A DNA stretch of 64,000 nt from NCBI GenBank assembly GCA_014382585.1, contig JACNJL010000057.1, forward strand, positions 1 through 64,000. The letters are read 5' to 3'. Shown here one piece after another: positions 1,241-9,066 of this stretch; positions within the stretch are counted from its first letter, which is position 1, and each line of letters starts with the position of its first letter. The translations under genes and the position numbers were made by a program. This stretch comes from Limisphaerales bacterium. GTDB lineage: Bacteria > Verrucomicrobiota > Verrucomicrobiia > Limisphaerales > UBA1100. The notes under the pieces were generated by a model. That model searched no databases. It saw only the letters and a list, made by a program, of their open reading frames with translations, and was not told where the DNA came from.

Positions 1241-1252
1241 TTGCAAAAAACA

Positions 1253-4200
1253 ATGGCCACCGAAATCCAATCATTGGAGGCGCGGGCGATGGCGCTGGCG
1301 CGCGAGCTGCAAACCACCGCCGGCACGCTCATCACGCCCGCCGAACAGGCGCAGCTCGATGAACTTTCCGGAATGCTCGAGCATCCGCCGGACAAGGTGA
1401 CCGTCGCCCAGCTCACTGACCAAGCTTTCCGCCCGCGCTCGGCCTCGCGTGGCATTAGTCAGTTTCAACATTTGCTTGAGACGCGCGGCATCCCGCGATT
1501 CTTTGGCCCGCTCGACAAGCTTGGCCTGCAAATGCTCCGCCGCATCGGACAGCTGGTGGCGTTCGTGGCATTCCCGCTGTCGCGCCGCAAGATTCGGCAG
1601 GACACCGCCGATGTTATCCTGCGAGCCGAGCCTCCGCCGCTTACCGCGCACCTCCGCCAACGCCACGCCGAGGGGCTGCGAATGAACGTCAATCTTCTTG
1701 GCGAAGCGGTGCTCGGCGAAACCGAAGCCGCCCGACGCCTCGAACAATATCTCGCCACGCTCGCCTTACCCGAGGTCGAAGTGGTGTCCGTGAAAATCTC
1801 CACGCTCTATTCGCAGGTTAACCCGCTCGCGCGCGAACACACGGTCGCCGTGTTGTGCGGGCGATTGGAAAAGCTTTTTCGTGCCGCTGCCGATCAAACA
1901 TTCACCCGCCCCAACGGTGATCGCGTGGCGAAATTTGTCTACCTCGATATGGAGGAATACCGGGACATGCACCTCACCACCGCCGCGTTTATGCGCACGC
2001 TCGATCGCGATGGGATGGAAAACATCAGCGCCGGCATCGTGTTGCAGGCGTACCTGCCTGACGCCCATGCCGTGCAGCAACAACTCAATGCGTGGGCGCG
2101 CGCGCGCGTCGATGCGGGCGGCGCGCCCATTCGGTTGCGGTTGGTGAAGGGTGCGAACATGGAAATGGAACGCATCGAGGCGGCCATCGGCGGTTGGCCG
2201 CAAGCGCCGTTCAATGTGAAAATCGATAGCGATGCGAATTTCAAACGGATGTTGCACGAGGCGATGCGCGAGGAAAACATCGCCGCCGTGCGGCCCGGCA
2301 TCGCGTCGCATAATCTCTTCGACATCGCGTATGGCTTACTGCTCGCACAGGATTGCGGCGCGATTCACCGCGTGCGGTTGGAGATGCTCGAGGGGATGGC
2401 CAGCCATCAACGCCGCGCCCTTACCAAGCACGCGGAAAATATTCTGCTCTACGCGCCCGCTTGCCGCGATGAGGAATTTATCAACGCGATTGGATATTTA
2501 ATTCGCCGACTGGACGAAAACACCGGGCCCGATAATTTCCTGCGGCACGCCTTCCACATCAGCGTGGACGACCCCGAATGGTCGCACCTCGAAAAAATAT
2601 TCAGCGATTCCGTGCACCGCATCGAAAGTTTGCCCAATCATCCCAATCGCCAACAAGATCGGTGCGAGCCGCCCACCACGTCCAAGCTCGCCGATGATTG
2701 GCGCGAATTCACCAACGAACCCGACACCGATTTTTCATTGCCGCAAAACGGCGAGTGGGTCGAGGGCATCATTGCAAAATGGAAACCGCGCTGCGGCGAT
2801 GACGCCACAAACATCCCGCTCATCATCGCCGGCGAAGCCGTCACCGAAGATCGATCTATAATAGAGAGCACCGATCCGTCGCGGCCGGACACCATCATCG
2901 CCCGCACGCCGCAGGCGAATGCTGACGACTTGCGACGCGCCGTTGCCTGCGCCCAGGCGGATCCCGCCGGTTGGCGTGCGATGCCGATGGCCGAACGCAA
3001 TGCCATCCTTGCCAAGGCCGCGCAGTGCATGCGGGAAGCGCGGACGGATCTCATTGGCGCGGCGATGGCCGACGGCGGCAAGATCGCGCCGGAATCCGAT
3101 TCAGAAATTTCCGAGGCCATCGATTTCACGGAGTTTTACCCACGCACCGCGCAGGCGCTGCACGATTTACCAAACCTTACCGCGCGACCCAAGGGTGTGG
3201 TGGCGGTGATCTCGCCCTGGAATTTTCCCATCGCAATACCATGCGGCGGCGTGGCGGCGGCGTTGGCGGCGGGCAACACGGTGCTGCTCAAGCCGGCGAG
3301 CGACACGCTGTTGCCGGCGCATCTCATTTGCGAATGTTTTTGGAACGCCGGCGTGCCGCGCGAGGCCTTGCAACTGCTGCCGTGCCCGGGCCGTTTGGCG
3401 GGCAAGCATTTGGTGGAGAGTGATGACGTGGACGTGGTCATCCTCACCGGCGGCACGGAGACGGCGCAAACGATGTTGCGCGCGAAGCCCTCGCTGAATT
3501 TGCTGGCGGAGACCGGCGGCAAAAATGCCACCATCGTCACCGCGATGGCCGACCGCGATCAAGCCATCAAGCACGTGCTGCACTCGGCCTTCAGTCACGC
3601 GGGGCAGAAGTGCTCGGCCACGTCGCTGTTGCTGTTGGAGGCGGAAGTTTTTGATGACGCAAAATTCAGGCGCAGCCTGCGCGACGCGGTGGAGAGCCTC
3701 GCCGTTGGATCCGCGTGGGAGTTGCATACAAAAATGAATCCGCTCATTCGCCCTGCCAGCGGCGACCTCGCCCGCGCGCGGGAAGCGCTCGAGCCCGGCG
3801 AGCAATGGCTGGTGCCGCCGTTGCCTGCGGACAATCCGCACCTTGCCTCGCCCGCGGTGAAATGGAATGTGCAGCCCGGCAGCCACGCGCATCTCACGGA
3901 ACTCTTCGGCCCGATGCTCAGCGTGATGCGTTACGAGAAGTTGGATGACGCCATCGATCTCATTCACCAAACCGGTTTCGGCCTCACCTCCGGCATCGAG
4001 ACGCTTGACGAGCGCGAGCAGGAATTTTGGCAACGCCGCGTGCGTGCTGGAAATTTATATATCAACCGCCCCACCACCGGCGCCATCGTGCTGCGCCAAC
4101 CCTTTGGCGGTATGGGCCAAAGCGCTTTCGGCCCCGGCATCAAAGCCGGCGGGCCAAACTATGTGGCGCAGTTGATGGATTTTGAGGAGAGGAATGATAC

Positions 4201-4813
4201 ACGTGCTGCCACGGACTCGCAGGCTCGTCCCTCCAATCAACCGCAATGGAGGGACGAGCCTGCGAGTCCGCATAATTTTTTAAAAGCCCTCGCCATTCGC
4301 GTGCCTTCCGTGGAATCCGCGTTGCGCAGCTACACAAAACAAATCCAAGACGAATTTGATGCCGAGCACGATCACCTGCGTCTGCTCGGCCAGGACAATC
4401 TCCGCCGCTATCGCCCCATCGATCGCCTCTGCATCTGTCTGCACGCCGACGACACCCAACTCGAAATCGCCGCCCGCATCGGCGCTGCCATCTCGGTGGG
4501 GTGCGAAGTCTCCATCACCGGCCCCGGCGCGGAAGACTGGCGTGAATTCGCCCAAGTTGTCCCCGAACCCGCTGTCAAAAAATTTGACCGCCTCCGCTAC
4601 GCCAAGCCATCGCGCGTCCCCGAAGCCATCCGCCAAGCCGCCAACGAAGCCTGCATCTACATCGCCGACACGCCCGTGCTCGCTGAAGGTCGGTTGGAAT
4701 TATTGTGGTACGTCGAAGAACAAAGCCTCTCCCACGACTACCATCGTTACGGAAATCTCGGGCCAAGGTTTGACGAGCAGCGCAACGGGCCAGTTAACAC
4801 AATCGCAAGGTAG
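1253..4813 (+). CDS. putA: Bifunctional proline dehydrogenase / delta-1-pyrroline-5-carboxylate dehydrogenase
   Basis: The 1186-residue protein oxidises proline to glutamate in two steps. The N-terminal half is an FAD-dependent PRODH barrel (LRLVKGANMEMERIEA near residue 295). The second half is an aldehyde dehydrogenase: SPWNFPIAIPCGG cofactor region, LAETGGKNA with the general base near residue 753, and HAGQKCSA with the nucleophilic cysteine near 786. A C-terminal segment ending EEQSLSHDYHRYGNLG is usual for this PutA clade. Two oddities are visible: about 20 residues near 988-1006 are encoded by a perfect palindrome (4213-4269), and the last residues after YGNLG run into another repeat (4809-4861), so the natural tail appears replaced. 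ATG 1253 is preferred over TTG 1241, which directly follows the previous stop. Confidence 0.95.
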   Translation: MATEIQSLEARAMALARELQTTAGTLITPAEQAQLDELSGMLEHPPDKVTVAQLTDQAFRPRSASRGISQFQHLLETRGIPRFFGPLDKLGLQMLRRIGQLVAFVAFPLSRRKIRQDTADVILRAEPPPLTAHLRQRHAEGLRMNVNLLGEAVLGETEAARRLEQYLATLALPEVEVVSVKISTLYSQVNPLAREHTVAVLCGRLEKLFRAAADQTFTRPNGDRVAKFVYLDMEEYRDMHLTTAAFMRTLDRDGMENISAGIVLQAYLPDAHAVQQQLNAWARARVDAGGAPIRLRLVKGANMEMERIEAAIGGWPQAPFNVKIDSDANFKRMLHEAMREENIAAVRPGIASHNLFDIAYGLLLAQDCGAIHRVRLEMLEGMASHQRRALTKHAENILLYAPACRDEEFINAIGYLIRRLDENTGPDNFLRHAFHISVDDPEWSHLEKIFSDSVHRIESLPNHPNRQQDRCEPPTTSKLADDWREFTNEPDTDFSLPQNGEWVEGIIAKWKPRCGDDATNIPLIIAGEAVTEDRSIIESTDPSRPDTIIARTPQANADDLRRAVACAQADPAGWRAMPMAERNAILAKAAQCMREARTDLIGAAMADGGKIAPESDSEISEAIDFTEFYPRTAQALHDLPNLTARPKGVVAVISPWNFPIAIPCGGVAAALAAGNTVLLKPASDTLLPAHLICECFWNAGVPREALQLLPCPGRLAGKHLVESDDVDVVILTGGTETAQTMLRAKPSLNLLAETGGKNATIVTAMADRDQAIKHVLHSAFSHAGQKCSATSLLLLEAEVFDDAKFRRSLRDAVESLAVGSAWELHTKMNPLIRPASGDLARAREALEPGEQWLVPPLPADNPHLASPAVKWNVQPGSHAHLTELFGPMLSVMRYEKLDDAIDLIHQTGFGLTSGIETLDEREQEFWQRRVRAGNLYINRPTTGAIVLRQPFGGMGQSAFGPGIKAGGPNYVAQLMDFEERNDTRAATDSQARPSNQPQWRDEPASPHNFLKALAIRVPSVESALRSYTKQIQDEFDAEHDHLRLLGQDNLRRYRPIDRLCICLHADDTQLEIAARIGAAISVGCEVSITGPGAEDWREFAQVVPEPAVKKFDRLRYAKPSRVPEAIRQAANEACIYIADTPVLAEGRLELLWYVEEQSLSHDYHRYGNLGPRFDEQRNGPVNTIAR
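4213..4269. repeat. Perfect 23-bp inverted repeat inside the putA reading frame
   Basis: Bases 4213-4235 and 4247-4269 are exact reverse complements with an 11-nt spacer. The element is translated in frame as a hydrophilic insert (DSQARPSNQPQWRDEPAS) between the aldehyde dehydrogenase domain and the C-terminal PutA segment. A second, diverged copy (6 differences in 57 bases) lies at 8771-8827. This resembles, in principle, the protein-coding palindromic elements known from Rickettsia. Confidence 0.95.
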
Positions 4814-4861
4814 GGCGGGGTGCCCACCCCGCCGCGGCGCGCCGGGACAGCGTGCCCTACC
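4809..4861. repeat. GTAGGGC-type palindromic element at the putA 3' end
   Basis: The 53-bp element starts GGTAGGGC and ends GCCCTACC (8-bp terminal inverted repeats) and holds an internal palindrome at 4814-4833. It overlaps the putA stop codon (TAG at 4811-4813), so it supplies that gene's last residue and stop. A similar-sized element with the same ends (GTAGGGC...GCCCTGCC) is at 38208-38259. It may act as a transcription terminator here, but no T-run follows. Confidence 0.8.
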
Positions 4862-4945: not shown

Positions 4946-5731
4946 TTGAATTCCGATTTAAAAATAGAGGGCCTGGACTGGCGTCTGGGAAACGGCCCCG
5001 TGCTGGCGACCGCCATCCACGCCGGACACCGGCTGCGGCCCGGCATGGCGGGTTGCCTGCGACTGCCGGAACCCGATCGGCTGCGTGAGGAGGATCCGTT
5101 TACCAATGAATGGACAGTGATTGGTGCGCATGGGTTGGTGGTGGAATGGTCGCGATTTGATGGCGACCTCAATCGGCCCCGGGAGAATGCGGTGTATGCC
5201 GGACCGGAAGCCGCGTGGGGTTTGGATTTATACGAGGCGCCGTTGCCGGAGGTCGTTCAGCAAACGGCGCTGGATTTTTACGATGCCTTTTATGAGGCCG
5301 TGGCTTTCTTTGTGGACGCGCAGTTGAAGCAACATCGCCACTTGCTCGTGCTCGATCTGCATACCTACAACCATCGTCGGAATGGGCCTCAGGCCGACTC
5401 AGCGAATTCGGAGACGAATCCGGAGATCAATCTCGGCACCGCCCGGTTGACCTGCCCCGAACAATGGGCGACGGTGCTGGACTCTCTGGAAAGTGCCTTG
5501 CGGGCGGAAGGTTTGGACACACGCCGCAATGTGAAGTTTCAGGGCGGCCATTTTTCCCAGTGGCTGAACGGGCGCTGGCCCGGCCGCGTTTGTGCGGTGG
5601 CGGTGGAAGTCAAAAAAATGTTTATGGACGAATGGACGGGCATCCGTGATGACGCCACCTTTCGGCGGATCACGAACGCCTTGGACACCGCCGCATGGTC
5701 CGCCGAACGGGCGTTATTGAATTTGAACTGA
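4946..5731 (+). CDS. N-formylglutamate amidohydrolase family protein
   Basis: The 261-residue protein matches the N-formylglutamate amidohydrolase fold, a zinc hydrolase related to carboxypeptidases. Family signatures are an early histidine motif (AIHAGHRL, residues 23-30), FDGDLNRPREN around D74-R77, LVLDLHTY with D137 and H139, and PEINLGT. No ATG is available in a suitable place; the best start is TTG 4946, with a purine-rich GGGA about ten bases upstream. The stop overlaps the next start (TGATG), so the two are translationally coupled. With the following zincin and ATP-grasp genes it forms a three-gene unit, which suggests it cleaves an amide made by the ligase and does not serve histidine degradation; no other hut gene is present. 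Confidence 0.8.
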   Translation: MNSDLKIEGLDWRLGNGPVLATAIHAGHRLRPGMAGCLRLPEPDRLREEDPFTNEWTVIGAHGLVVEWSRFDGDLNRPRENAVYAGPEAAWGLDLYEAPLPEVVQQTALDFYDAFYEAVAFFVDAQLKQHRHLLVLDLHTYNHRRNGPQADSANSETNPEINLGTARLTCPEQWATVLDSLESALRAEGLDTRRNVKFQGGHFSQWLNGRWPGRVCAVAVEVKKMFMDEWTGIRDDATFRRITNALDTAAWSAERALLNLN

Positions 5732-7659
5732 TGCCTGCCCGCACCCCCAGCCCGTCATTGGACGCCGCCTTCGTGGAGGAGATGGCCCGATTGTGGCGCG
5801 ACAACAAGCGGATCCATCGCCGGCTCCCTTTCGGAGGGCTGTTGCACATCGATCGTCAACTGCCGTTTCTCTGTGTGTATCGTGATCCGGTGGGGATGGA
5901 GGATGAAGGCACCGATTGGCTGGTTCGCGGTGAAGCCTCTTATTTAATTTGCTCCGCACACAAAAATCTCCGGCGGCCATTGAACGCCCTTCTTTCAACG
6001 TTGCTGCAGGAAATGAATGAAGCCTTTGGCGCGTCGTTGGTGTTGGAACTCTGGTCCGGCGACCATCATGCCGTGCCAAAGAAGACGGAGAGCACGGAGG
6101 CATTTCGCCCCGGGTTTACCGTGCACGCCGTTCGGCATTCTGGAAAAACCGTGGAAGCGTTGGAGCAAACGCTTCGCAAGGTGCGCGTGCTCAAACAACC
6201 CGCTGAGGTGCGCGTTCAACATCACCCGCGTTCGTACCCGATTGATCTCCCGCCACTGCTCTCCCCCCGTCAACGGGAGCAATGGAATGTGCGGTTGATG
6301 GGCTTGGAGGTGCGCCCGATTTATCAGCCCCGTGAAAACGGGTTGCACGAGTACACCCAACTCCGCCGCCGCATTCACCGGGGACTGTCCCGTGGATTGC
6401 GTCAGGCCTTTTACGAATTTGCCCGATCACAAACCCCTCAGCAACCGCCGCATTTTCATGCGTTGGGCCCCCGAGCCGTCACCCGCGCAGTGTGGGATGT
6501 CGACCGTCGACTGGCAGAGATCGCCGAGCAATTCGATTTTTTACTGCTCAGCACGCCGGTCAATATTCAGCCCAGCTGGCAGACATTTCATCGGCGTAAA
6601 TTTGAACGGACTCCGGAATTTCAATACCGCCCGTTGCCCATGGATCCGGCACGGTTGAAGGGCGCGCTGTACCGCATTGATCTGGATCGCGTGGAAGACC
6701 CCACGCTTTCCGCCCTTTTTCGCAGTAAACGCACGGAACTGGATCGGCAGCTGACCATGCTCATGGACCGCGGGACGCGCAATTTTCTTTACGGCAGTCT
6801 GCAGTTGTTTGAACCGGTTGATGACGCATTGCTGCAAGCGGCCCAACGCATCCTCCACGCGCTGCCCGGACGCACTCGGGATGATCTCTCTTTTGGTCGC
6901 CTGCCGGCCGAGCAATACGTCCAGCGCGCCGAAGCGGAGATCCAACGCATGAAACGGTGCAATCCCTTGGTGCAGTCCAAGGTCATTCTGACAGATCAAG
7001 TCGCCAGCCTGATGGTTTCCGAAGGCAACATGCTCGTGCCCTCCCACGCTCGTCTCCCCGCCAATCGTCTGAATGCATTGATTCAGCATGAAGTCGGGAC
7101 ACACGTGCTAACCTACTGGAACGCCCGCCAACAACCCTTGCGCCTTCTGGCGTCCGGCTTGCCGGGTTATGACGAAATGCAGGAAGGGCTTGCCGTGCTC
7201 AGCGAATATTTTGCCGGTGAACTGACTGCGATTCGTTTGCGCTTGCTGGCCGGACGGGTCATCGCGGCGCATCATTTGCAGGAAGGCAGGTCGTTTGTGG
7301 AAACCTTTCGCGAATTGACGGGCCGTTGGGAATTTGAAAACCGCGCCGCTTATGGCGTCACCGCCCGCACCTACCGCAGCGGCGGGTTGATCAAGGATGC
7401 CATGTACCTGCGCGGCGTGTTGGCGCTGTTGCGCTACTTCGAAGCCGGCGGCGCATTGGAGCCGCTGTGGATCGGTAAAATCCACCAACGCCACCTGCCC
7501 ATCATCGCCGAATTGCGACTGCGACAAGTGTTGCAACCGCCTCTTTTGATCCCTTCCTACACCGAGACGCCAAAATTTGCCGCTCGGCTTGAACGGCTTC
7601 AGCGGCCTTGTACGCCGTTGGACCTGATTGCCACGCCGCGACGACGGGCTTCCCATTGA
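5731..7659 (+). CDS. QEGLA-motif zincin-like metalloprotein (DUF1704 / MATCAP-like family)
   Basis: A 642-residue protein with the hallmark motifs of the DUF1704 family, often labelled 'flavohemoglobin expression-modulating QEGLA motif protein'. HEVGTH at residues 453-458 is a zinc-binding HExxxH, and DEMQEGLAV at 481-489 supplies the name-giving motif and a likely third zinc ligand. The family is a putative metallopeptidase; eukaryotic relatives (MATCAP) remove C-terminal tyrosine from tubulin. The start ATG 5731 overlaps the preceding TGA; an in-frame start at 5695 would overlap the upstream gene by 37 bases and is less likely. It sits between an amidohydrolase and an ATP-grasp ligase, so a role in trimming or recycling an amide-linked modification is a reasonable inference. 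Confidence 0.85.
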   Translation: MPARTPSPSLDAAFVEEMARLWRDNKRIHRRLPFGGLLHIDRQLPFLCVYRDPVGMEDEGTDWLVRGEASYLICSAHKNLRRPLNALLSTLLQEMNEAFGASLVLELWSGDHHAVPKKTESTEAFRPGFTVHAVRHSGKTVEALEQTLRKVRVLKQPAEVRVQHHPRSYPIDLPPLLSPRQREQWNVRLMGLEVRPIYQPRENGLHEYTQLRRRIHRGLSRGLRQAFYEFARSQTPQQPPHFHALGPRAVTRAVWDVDRRLAEIAEQFDFLLLSTPVNIQPSWQTFHRRKFERTPEFQYRPLPMDPARLKGALYRIDLDRVEDPTLSALFRSKRTELDRQLTMLMDRGTRNFLYGSLQLFEPVDDALLQAAQRILHALPGRTRDDLSFGRLPAEQYVQRAEAEIQRMKRCNPLVQSKVILTDQVASLMVSEGNMLVPSHARLPANRLNALIQHEVGTHVLTYWNARQQPLRLLASGLPGYDEMQEGLAVLSEYFAGELTAIRLRLLAGRVIAAHHLQEGRSFVETFRELTGRWEFENRAAYGVTARTYRSGGLIKDAMYLRGVLALLRYFEAGGALEPLWIGKIHQRHLPIIAELRLRQVLQPPLLIPSYTETPKFAARLERLQRPCTPLDLIATPRRRASH

Positions 7660-7692
7660 ACCCTTTTTTGCATTAAACTCCCCGTGAAACCT

Positions 7693-8751
7693 ATGGATCG
7701 AATCCCAATAAAAATCGCCTTCTTCGTCAATGACCTGCTCACCGAAGAAGACAACTACACCACCACCCGTCTGGCCATGTACGCCCACAACCGCGGGCAT
7801 CAGGTGTATTATCTGTCGCCCGACGATTTTGCGTTGGATCCGGACAATCAGGTCCGCGCCCGGGTGGTCAGTCCGCCGGCCCGAAAATTCAAAAGTCTCA
7901 AAAGTTTTATCACCAATGTCAAAAGCCCCAAAGCCTCGCGGGAACGCCTGACCCTGGGCGAGTTGGATGTGTTGTTTCTACGAAACGATCCTTCCACCGA
8001 ACGGGCGTCCCGCAACTGGGCTGCCCAGGCCGGCATACTGTTCAGCCGCCACGCACTGCAGCACGGCGTGATTGTGCTCAATGATCCCAATGGTCTCATG
8101 CAGGCCATGAACAAAATGTACTTCCAGAATTTCCCCGAGGAAGTCCGCCCGCAAACACTCATCACGCGCGACCGCAATGAGATTAAATCCTTTGCGAAAG
8201 AATTCGGCGACACCGTCATCAAGCCGCTTCAGGGCTCCGGAGGCGCCAATGTCTTCATGGTCCGCAAATCGGATATTCCGAATCTGAACCAGATGATCGA
8301 CGCGATTGTGCGCGACGGCTATGTCATTTGTCAGGAGTTCCTCAAGGAAGCCGAGCACGGCGATACACGCATGTTTCTGATGAACGGCCAACCCTTGCGT
8401 TTCAAGGGACGCTACGCCGCATTCCGGCGCGTGCGCGAGGGAGGCGACCTTCGCAGCAATATTCACGCCGGCGGCATCAAGGCCAAAGCGGAAATCACCG
8501 ACAAGGAACTGGCCATCGCCGAGATCGTCCGCCCGAAGCTGGTTCAAGACGGGATGTTCCTTGTTGGACTCGATATCGTCGGGGATAAACTGATGGAAAT
8601 CAACGTGTTCAGCCCCGGGGGATTGGGGAGCGCGCGCGAGTTTGAGAAAGTCAATTTTTGCACGCCCGTCCTCGACTCCATCGAGCGCAAGGTCCAGTAC
8701 ATGACCCACTACAACCGGGAATTCAACAACACCGGCATGGCGTGCCTGTAA
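7693..8751 (+). CDS. ATP-grasp ligase, glutathione synthase/RimK-like
   Basis: The protein (352 residues from ATG 7693; GTG 7684 would add three) has an N-terminal domain starting IKIAFFVND and an ATP-grasp core: VIKPLQGSGGANVF (ATP-binding lysine and glycine loop), CQEFLKEAEHGDTRMFL, and the metal-binding LMEINVFSPGGLG. These resemble GshB glutathione synthase, but the neighbours argue for a different amide bond former: no gamma-glutamylcysteine ligase is nearby, and the gene follows an N-formylglutamate amidohydrolase-like gene and a QEGLA zincin in the same direction with a 33-bp gap. I infer that it ligates an amino acid to a carboxylate in the pathway served by those two genes. Confidence 0.85.
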   Translation: MDRIPIKIAFFVNDLLTEEDNYTTTRLAMYAHNRGHQVYYLSPDDFALDPDNQVRARVVSPPARKFKSLKSFITNVKSPKASRERLTLGELDVLFLRNDPSTERASRNWAAQAGILFSRHALQHGVIVLNDPNGLMQAMNKMYFQNFPEEVRPQTLITRDRNEIKSFAKEFGDTVIKPLQGSGGANVFMVRKSDIPNLNQMIDAIVRDGYVICQEFLKEAEHGDTRMFLMNGQPLRFKGRYAAFRRVREGGDLRSNIHAGGIKAKAEITDKELAIAEIVRPKLVQDGMFLVGLDIVGDKLMEINVFSPGGLGSAREFEKVNFCTPVLDSIERKVQYMTHYNREFNNTGMACL

Positions 8752-8765
8752 ACCGGCCCTACGCC

Positions 8766-9066
8766 GCCACAGACTCGCGGGCTTGTCCCTCCAATCAACC
8801 GCAATGGAGAGACGAGCCTGTGAGTTCGCAAACACACAAAGTTGAAGTATTCAAAGCCCTCGCCACCCGCGTGCCCTCCGTGGAGCCCGTGTTGCACAGT
8901 TACACCCAACAAGCCCATGACGAATTCCACGCCGAGCACGCCCGTGCTCGCTGAAGGTCGCTTGGAATTATTGTGGTACGTCGAAGAACAAAGCCTCTCC
9001 CACGACTACCATCGCTACGGCAACCTCGGCGCGCGGGGCAATGAAAAGCGGGCTGGGGTGGAATGA
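8766..9066 (+). pseudogene. Truncated, internally deleted copy of the putA 3' end
   Basis: From 8766 the sequence repeats the last part of putA: the palindromic element, then a stretch matching 4283-4370 (ALATRVPSVEPVLHSY versus ALAIRVPSVESALRSY), then a jump to a stretch matching 4669-4757 (VLAEGRLELLWYVEEQSLSH). The jump removes 302 bp and falls on a shared CACG, so the reading frame is broken. The copy begins just after the stop of the ATP-grasp gene and ends near 9066 with a tail (GARGNEKRAGVE) that may be the original PutA C-terminus. There is no start and no catalytic domain, so it is a non-functional remnant. Confidence 0.85.
8771..8827. repeat. Second, diverged copy of the putA palindromic element
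   Basis: The 57-bp stretch matches 4213-4269 with six substitutions. The 11-base central spacer is identical and the arms have lost perfect pairing. It is part of the putA remnant and so was already in the gene when that segment was duplicated. Confidence 0.9.

Follow-up and report, generated by a model that had tools for sequence, protein, structure and literature searches.

A palindromic repeat in frame in putA of a Limisphaerales bacterium, probably a copy of a dispersed REP/REPIN-like family

The palindrome that lies within putA of this marine Limisphaerales bacterium is probably a copy of a dispersed, non-autonomous REP/REPIN-like palindromic family, fixed in frame in the gene and translated as a tolerated, disordered linker. 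In-frame coding repeats have already been published, Verrucomicrobia included, and the best reading is that the putA palindrome belongs to this known kind; what is unusual is the conservation of its arms and the inversion of its loop at one coding site. The window analysed here is a stretch of 64,000 nucleotides (contig JACNJL010000057.1, positions 1 to 64,000); the genome to which it belongs (G000) comprises 3.7 Mb in 70 contigs and is 95% complete. All genomes compared are drafts, and most or all of them are metagenome-assembled.

The palindrome and its predicted peptide

A repeat search of the window gave palindrome arms of 24 nt that are 100% complementary around an 11-nt loop (Table 1). 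This bears out the perfect-arm, in-frame palindrome described in the first-pass annotation, which had been placed at 4213-4269; at 4212-4270 it is one base longer on each side. The RNA fold of the palindrome has an energy of -54.3 kcal/mol (z -10.7 compared to shuffles), and the arm pattern, allowing up to three mismatches, has four matches in the window where shuffles predict none. The host ORF of 1190 codons runs across the palindrome without a stop, and on the 1185-aa protein Pfam places both Pro_dh (132-431) and Aldedh (533-973) upstream of it. Based on the open frame and the conservation of length, the palindrome would be translated in frame, between the aldehyde dehydrogenase (ALDH) domain and the C-terminal domain of PutA.

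Table 1. Coordinates in the window of the putA palindrome, its host gene and the duplicated putA fragment.
Feature	Position	Strand	Remarks
putA host ORF, bifunctional proline dehydrogenase / aldehyde dehydrogenase	1241..4813	+	1185 aa from ATG at 1256
Translated segment TDSQARPSNQPQWRDEPASP	4211..4270	+	residues 986-1005 of 1185-aa PutA; predicted unstructured linker
Left arm of palindrome	4212..4235	+	24 nt; family core GGACTCGCAGGCTCGTCCCTCC at 4213-4234
Loop counted between 22-nt family cores	4235-4247	+	13 nt, AATCAACCGCAAT
Palindrome loop	4236..4246	+	11 nt between 24-nt arms
Right arm of palindrome	4247..4270	+	perfect reverse complement of left arm
Decayed duplicate of putA 3' end (element and downstream putA sequence, internal deletion)	8763..9050	+	behind glutathione-synthetase-like gene
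Second palindrome copy, within putA duplicate	8771..8827	+	loop same as putA copy; 3 substitutions per arm

In an AlphaFold2 model of PutA built with 22 sequences (mean pLDDT 81, pTM 0.83), residues 981-1003, which cover the insert between the ALDH and C-terminal domains, have a pLDDT below 50, and the insert is predicted to form a disordered linker of about 19-20 residues. The other in-gene copies of the family, in a glycogen debranching enzyme, a NAGK-MurQ protein and a protein kinase, also lie between domains, which is the pattern expected of tolerated linkers. In the amylase/glycogen debranching gene the insert separates GDE_N from GDE_C. G004 (the MAG bin84o) and G006 have it nearly intact and G005 slightly worn, and in G000 (L356, 1756-2040) it is a relic worn to ordinary coding sequence, still in frame. 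Outgroup debranching genes carry an element-free linker of similar length at this junction, and the insertion may thus have replaced linker sequence. A partly decayed copy is found in frame at the junction of a BadF-type kinase and MurQ in G000, in G004 and, up to the contig end, in G006, and the linker of a protein kinase in G000 contains one more in-frame copy.

A dispersed family and the search for its transposase

A search of the genome and its relatives for the element, which the first-pass annotation had proposed, returned 94 blast rows over about 50 places in G000. Arms with at most one mismatch number about 80 in G000, 81 in G004, 12 in G006 and 11 in G005, and there are none in the congeners G001-G003; exact arms occur in 15 of 320 genomes from the order, and these include a second cluster in another family (G187, G193, G177). 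Inward-facing arm pairs, of which G000 has 30 and G004 has 32, are the commonest arrangement among the copies read, with loops of 12 to 42 nt; in a second arrangement the arms face outward, often with a 21-nt spacer, and 48 of 80 arm pairs are perfect. For most of the 30 inward pairs in G000 no coding-like ORF extends across the pair, and the copies are mostly extragenic. Since copy sites L007, L013, L063 and L020 of G000 are empty in the corresponding loci of G005 or G006, copies have appeared or vanished within the genus. At these empty sites no clean target-site duplication (a mark of MITEs, along with terminal inverted repeats and a parent transposon) was found, nor was an exact empty site at the congener loci compared, and a plasmid search with the element gave no match. 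The recurring family suggested earlier is borne out, with an uneven copy number and sites that are empty in congeners.

It had also been proposed that a second copy within the window shows a mobile or at least recurring family. Recurrence still holds, because of the 94 blast rows over about 50 places and the 80 arms in the genome, but we reject the second copy as a sign of mobility. At 8763-8830 the 13-nt loop AATCAACCGCAAT recurs as in the putA copy, and the DNA 3' of it is 81% identical over 91 nt to the putA sequence after the first copy and then jumps to the putA 3' end. Because the two copies share the same loop and the second is followed by putA-like sequence, the latter is a segmental duplicate of the putA tail, decayed and internally deleted, rather than an insertion in its own right.

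Repeats of other kinds are also present in these genomes. Three intergenic sites of G004 (L288, L291 and L293, corresponding to L013, L066 and L007 of G000, where the putA-type palindrome stands) carry a different palindromic family, GTGCTGCCGGCATCTTGCCGGCAG and its complement, which suggests either shared hotspots or replacement. At positions 118-239 of the window, direct and inverted copies of CCAATGACCAAACCCCAATGACC are clustered, and similar strings are found near other copies of the family.

No dedicated transposase was found for the family in a Y1_Tnp/RAYT search of the genome and its relatives, the assemblies being incomplete. The only Y1_Tnp gene of G000 (L031; contig C30, 94543-97884) was rejected as its RAYT, as another repeat flanks it; it is surrounded by the palindromic family AGTCGCGAAGCGAC / GCCGCGAAGCGGC, and gene and palindromes together are a probable REPtron. 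A RAYT of G004 located some 400 bp from a family copy was likewise rejected: it has a flanking repeat of its own, and a tRNA-like sequence, recognised by eye, lies in between. The family flanks none of the remaining RAYT loci that were examined in relatives, and the sole arm in their vicinity is one about 1.3 kb away in G187. A pair of inward arms separated by 1 kb on contig C38 might have enclosed an autonomous element, but judged from sequence the main ORF between them resembles a formylglycine-generating-enzyme-type protein and not a transposase.

Relation to known repeat systems

The first-pass statement that in-frame palindromic elements are known mainly from Rickettsia is overstated, since in-frame REP dimers have been published, including from Verrucomicrobia (Di Nocera et al. 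2013, PMC3733652). In that paper, REP families tagged GTAG or CGTC occur within ORFs, often as dimers encoding 20-30 residues; intragenic REPs are most numerous in Opitutus terrae and Rickettsia conorii, with GTAG ones highest in Opitutus terrae (Verrucomicrobia); two Xanthomonas species have different REPs at nearly the same place in recB; and GTAG families have a RAYT, whereas CGTC families have no associated transposase. The putA family resembles these repeats in consisting of short, mostly extragenic, often inverted dimers with variable spacers, some of them in ORFs, and it is like the CGTC families in that no associated transposase was found. Unlike them it carries neither tag, the inner end of its arm reading GGAG; and unlike a canonical REP, its single arm is a poor hairpin that folds no better than shuffles (z 0.3 to 0.6) and has a GGAC..GTCC core only. 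Without a tag, and with a single arm that makes a poor hairpin, the family does not qualify as a strict REP. The consulted part of PMC3733652 does not mention arms that stay conserved while the loop turns over and inverts at a single coding site; small hairpin-loop inversions are known from chloroplast genomes.

REPINs are genome-dispersed inverted REP doublets in which two conserved units surround a less conserved spacer and form a long predicted hairpin, singlets probably being remnants (Bertels and Rainey 2011, PMC3116915). The putA family is similarly dispersed, multi-copy and mainly extragenic, and its inverted doublets can form a long hairpin; it differs in having no RAYT gene beside it, in spacers that vary in length without a common sequence, and in arms that pair almost perfectly over 24 bp. 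With the Rickettsia palindromic elements, which we compared by description only, it shares in-frame insertion into unrelated genes (putA, GDE, NAGK-MurQ, protein kinase) and, to judge by the open frames, translation; the organism is different, however, and most copies here are extragenic.

Directly behind putA, at 4810-4833 of the window, lies a GTAG-tagged REP-like hairpin, GTAGGGCGGGGTGCCCACCCCGCC, whose TAG is the putA stop codon. The string GTAGGGCGGG has 14 matches in the genome, fewer than a reversed control; GTAG REPs that supply stop codons are reported in PMC3733652. The genes that follow (4946-8748) encode an N-formylglutamate amidohydrolase, a MATCAP (tyrosine carboxypeptidase) family protein and a glutathione-synthetase-like ATP-grasp protein.

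The putA element between species and competing explanations

For the putA comparison, relatives were taken from whole genomes and from named contigs. The element occurs at the same position of putA, 57 bp long and in frame, in the window, bin84o (JAAZZB010000089.1), NIOZ-UU28 (G020; JACNJE010000051.1), ARS81 (NYYJ01000147.1) and SB9160_S9_bin_9 (JAPPPH010000067.1). The first-pass annotation had pointed to close PutA homologues as the place to look for missing residues, and the insert is indeed absent from the congeners AH-558-L06 and FRAM_RAS_EGC1617_bin25, where a 14-residue linker stands instead; distant PutA homologues all lack the element. As the putA linkers differ by 10 to 17 residues and none is an exact empty site, a base-level reconstruction of the insertion is not possible. 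Across the five species the arms match at 44 of 44 positions (43 of 44 for ARS81), although the 400-bp flanks are 75-92% identical. The loop of NIOZ-UU28, ATTGCGGTTGATT, is the exact reverse complement of the window loop, a match with a chance probability of about 4 to the power -13. Other orthologous pairs keep their loop orientation, which makes this the single inversion observed; in those pairs the arms are mostly, though not always, better conserved than the loops.

The two putA arms of NIOZ-UU28 are the only arms in that genome at up to three mismatches, and the copy there has therefore travelled with the gene. Its PutA is like that of ARS81 and SB9160 over most of the protein and like that of the window over much of the last third, element included. 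Between species, the element appears to behave as part of putA. One single arm beyond putA is present in G178, a genome with the same ORF length and putA arms as ARS81. A search for more putA loops from the second genus yielded only two further genomes with the tail at E 1e-30 or better; their ORF lengths equal those of ARS81 and SB9160, and they are probably these two genomes themselves. The putA of bin84o carries a further in-frame palindromic insert, located between the proline dehydrogenase and ALDH parts (L153, ~4440-4620; LTPTLSPRRGS...LPLPQGEGRGEG), which is absent from the window and the other congeners.

We propose that a unit of the family, an arm of 22-24 nt usually present as an inward-facing inverted pair around a variable loop of 12-42 nt, entered putA in a single old insertion. 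Its length of 57 nt, divisible by three, its arms, stop-free in this frame, and the position of the peptide at a domain boundary would explain why the insertion was tolerated. Later movement between species would have been by recombination of the 3' third of putA rather than by transposition, and the loop may have been changed and inverted by hairpin-tip processing or by exchange between identical arms. The REP/REPIN-like reading is weakened by the missing dedicated transposase, by single arms that fold no better than shuffles and by the lack of a clean target-site duplication.

The arms might alternatively have escaped drift because the hairpin was recruited, a DNA or mRNA structure at the domain boundary being under selection, for instance for translational pausing between the ALDH and C-terminal domains or for mRNA stability. 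The third position is unchanged in 13 of 14 arm codons, compared with 51 of 140 flanking codons with a conserved amino acid (Fisher p=4.7e-5, to be read with care, as the test treats codons as independent and the five putA sequences are linked by recombination). The fold is also very stable, the arms persist in NIOZ-UU28 and ARS81, where hardly any further copies exist to convert from, and other in-gene copies decay (GDE in G000, NAGK-MurQ). That decay equally means that other sites can do without the hairpin, two congeners lack it in putA, and the comparison comprises five recombination-linked sequences only; we consider recruitment unlikely. Gene conversion with other genomic copies would keep the arms identical and swap loops in either orientation, and in family-rich genomes such as those of the window and G187 it could account at once for the identity of the arms, the exchange of loops and the inverted loop. 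Yet among the copies read the putA loop occurs in no other copy of the window's genome outside the putA duplicate, NIOZ-UU28 and ARS81 have no donors, and the putA arms of bin84o are of the GCAGGC type although its arms are mostly GCAAGC. Weakened by the missing donors, conversion is rejected as the sole explanation and seems very improbable.

The family might instead have inserted independently at the same putA nucleotide in several lineages, each time with its own loop. In line with this, the loops of the window, bin84o, ARS81 and SB9160 are unrelated (8/13 or fewer), the linker sequence upstream of the element varies between genera, and several intergenic sites carry different palindromic families in G000 and G004. 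Independent insertion nonetheless seems improbable to us: all five loops are exactly 13 nt, those of the window and NIOZ-UU28 are exact reverse complements, NIOZ-UU28 and ARS81 offer essentially no further copies of the family that could be a source, and no strict target sequence is apparent around other copies. As for the inversion itself, it might be an assembly artefact in NIOZ-UU28: an assembler with k <=24 can cross a perfect hairpin either way, the arms are 24 nt long and the genomes in question seem to be metagenome-assembled drafts. Assemblers normally use longer k as well, which counts against an artefact, and the window loop orientation recurs in the window's decayed duplicate, where the two arms have ceased to match each other; that orientation at least is thus genuine, and we give the artefact little credence.

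We give only a small chance to the further idea that the arms are kept perfect at the DNA level while the loop flips or is rewritten, as a tiny invertible, frame-safe segment (SNQPQW vs SIAVDW) that is possibly still switching within populations; if true, a host enzyme would contain an invertible segment that changes without breaking the protein. The putA case separates arm conservation from loop change within one gene, and hairpin selection, gene conversion and loop inversion are testable from reads. Together the in-gene copies form a graded series from repeat to protein. The repeat is intact in putA of five species and in GDE of two relatives, worn but in frame in GDE of the window's genome, and partly decayed in kinase-MurQ.
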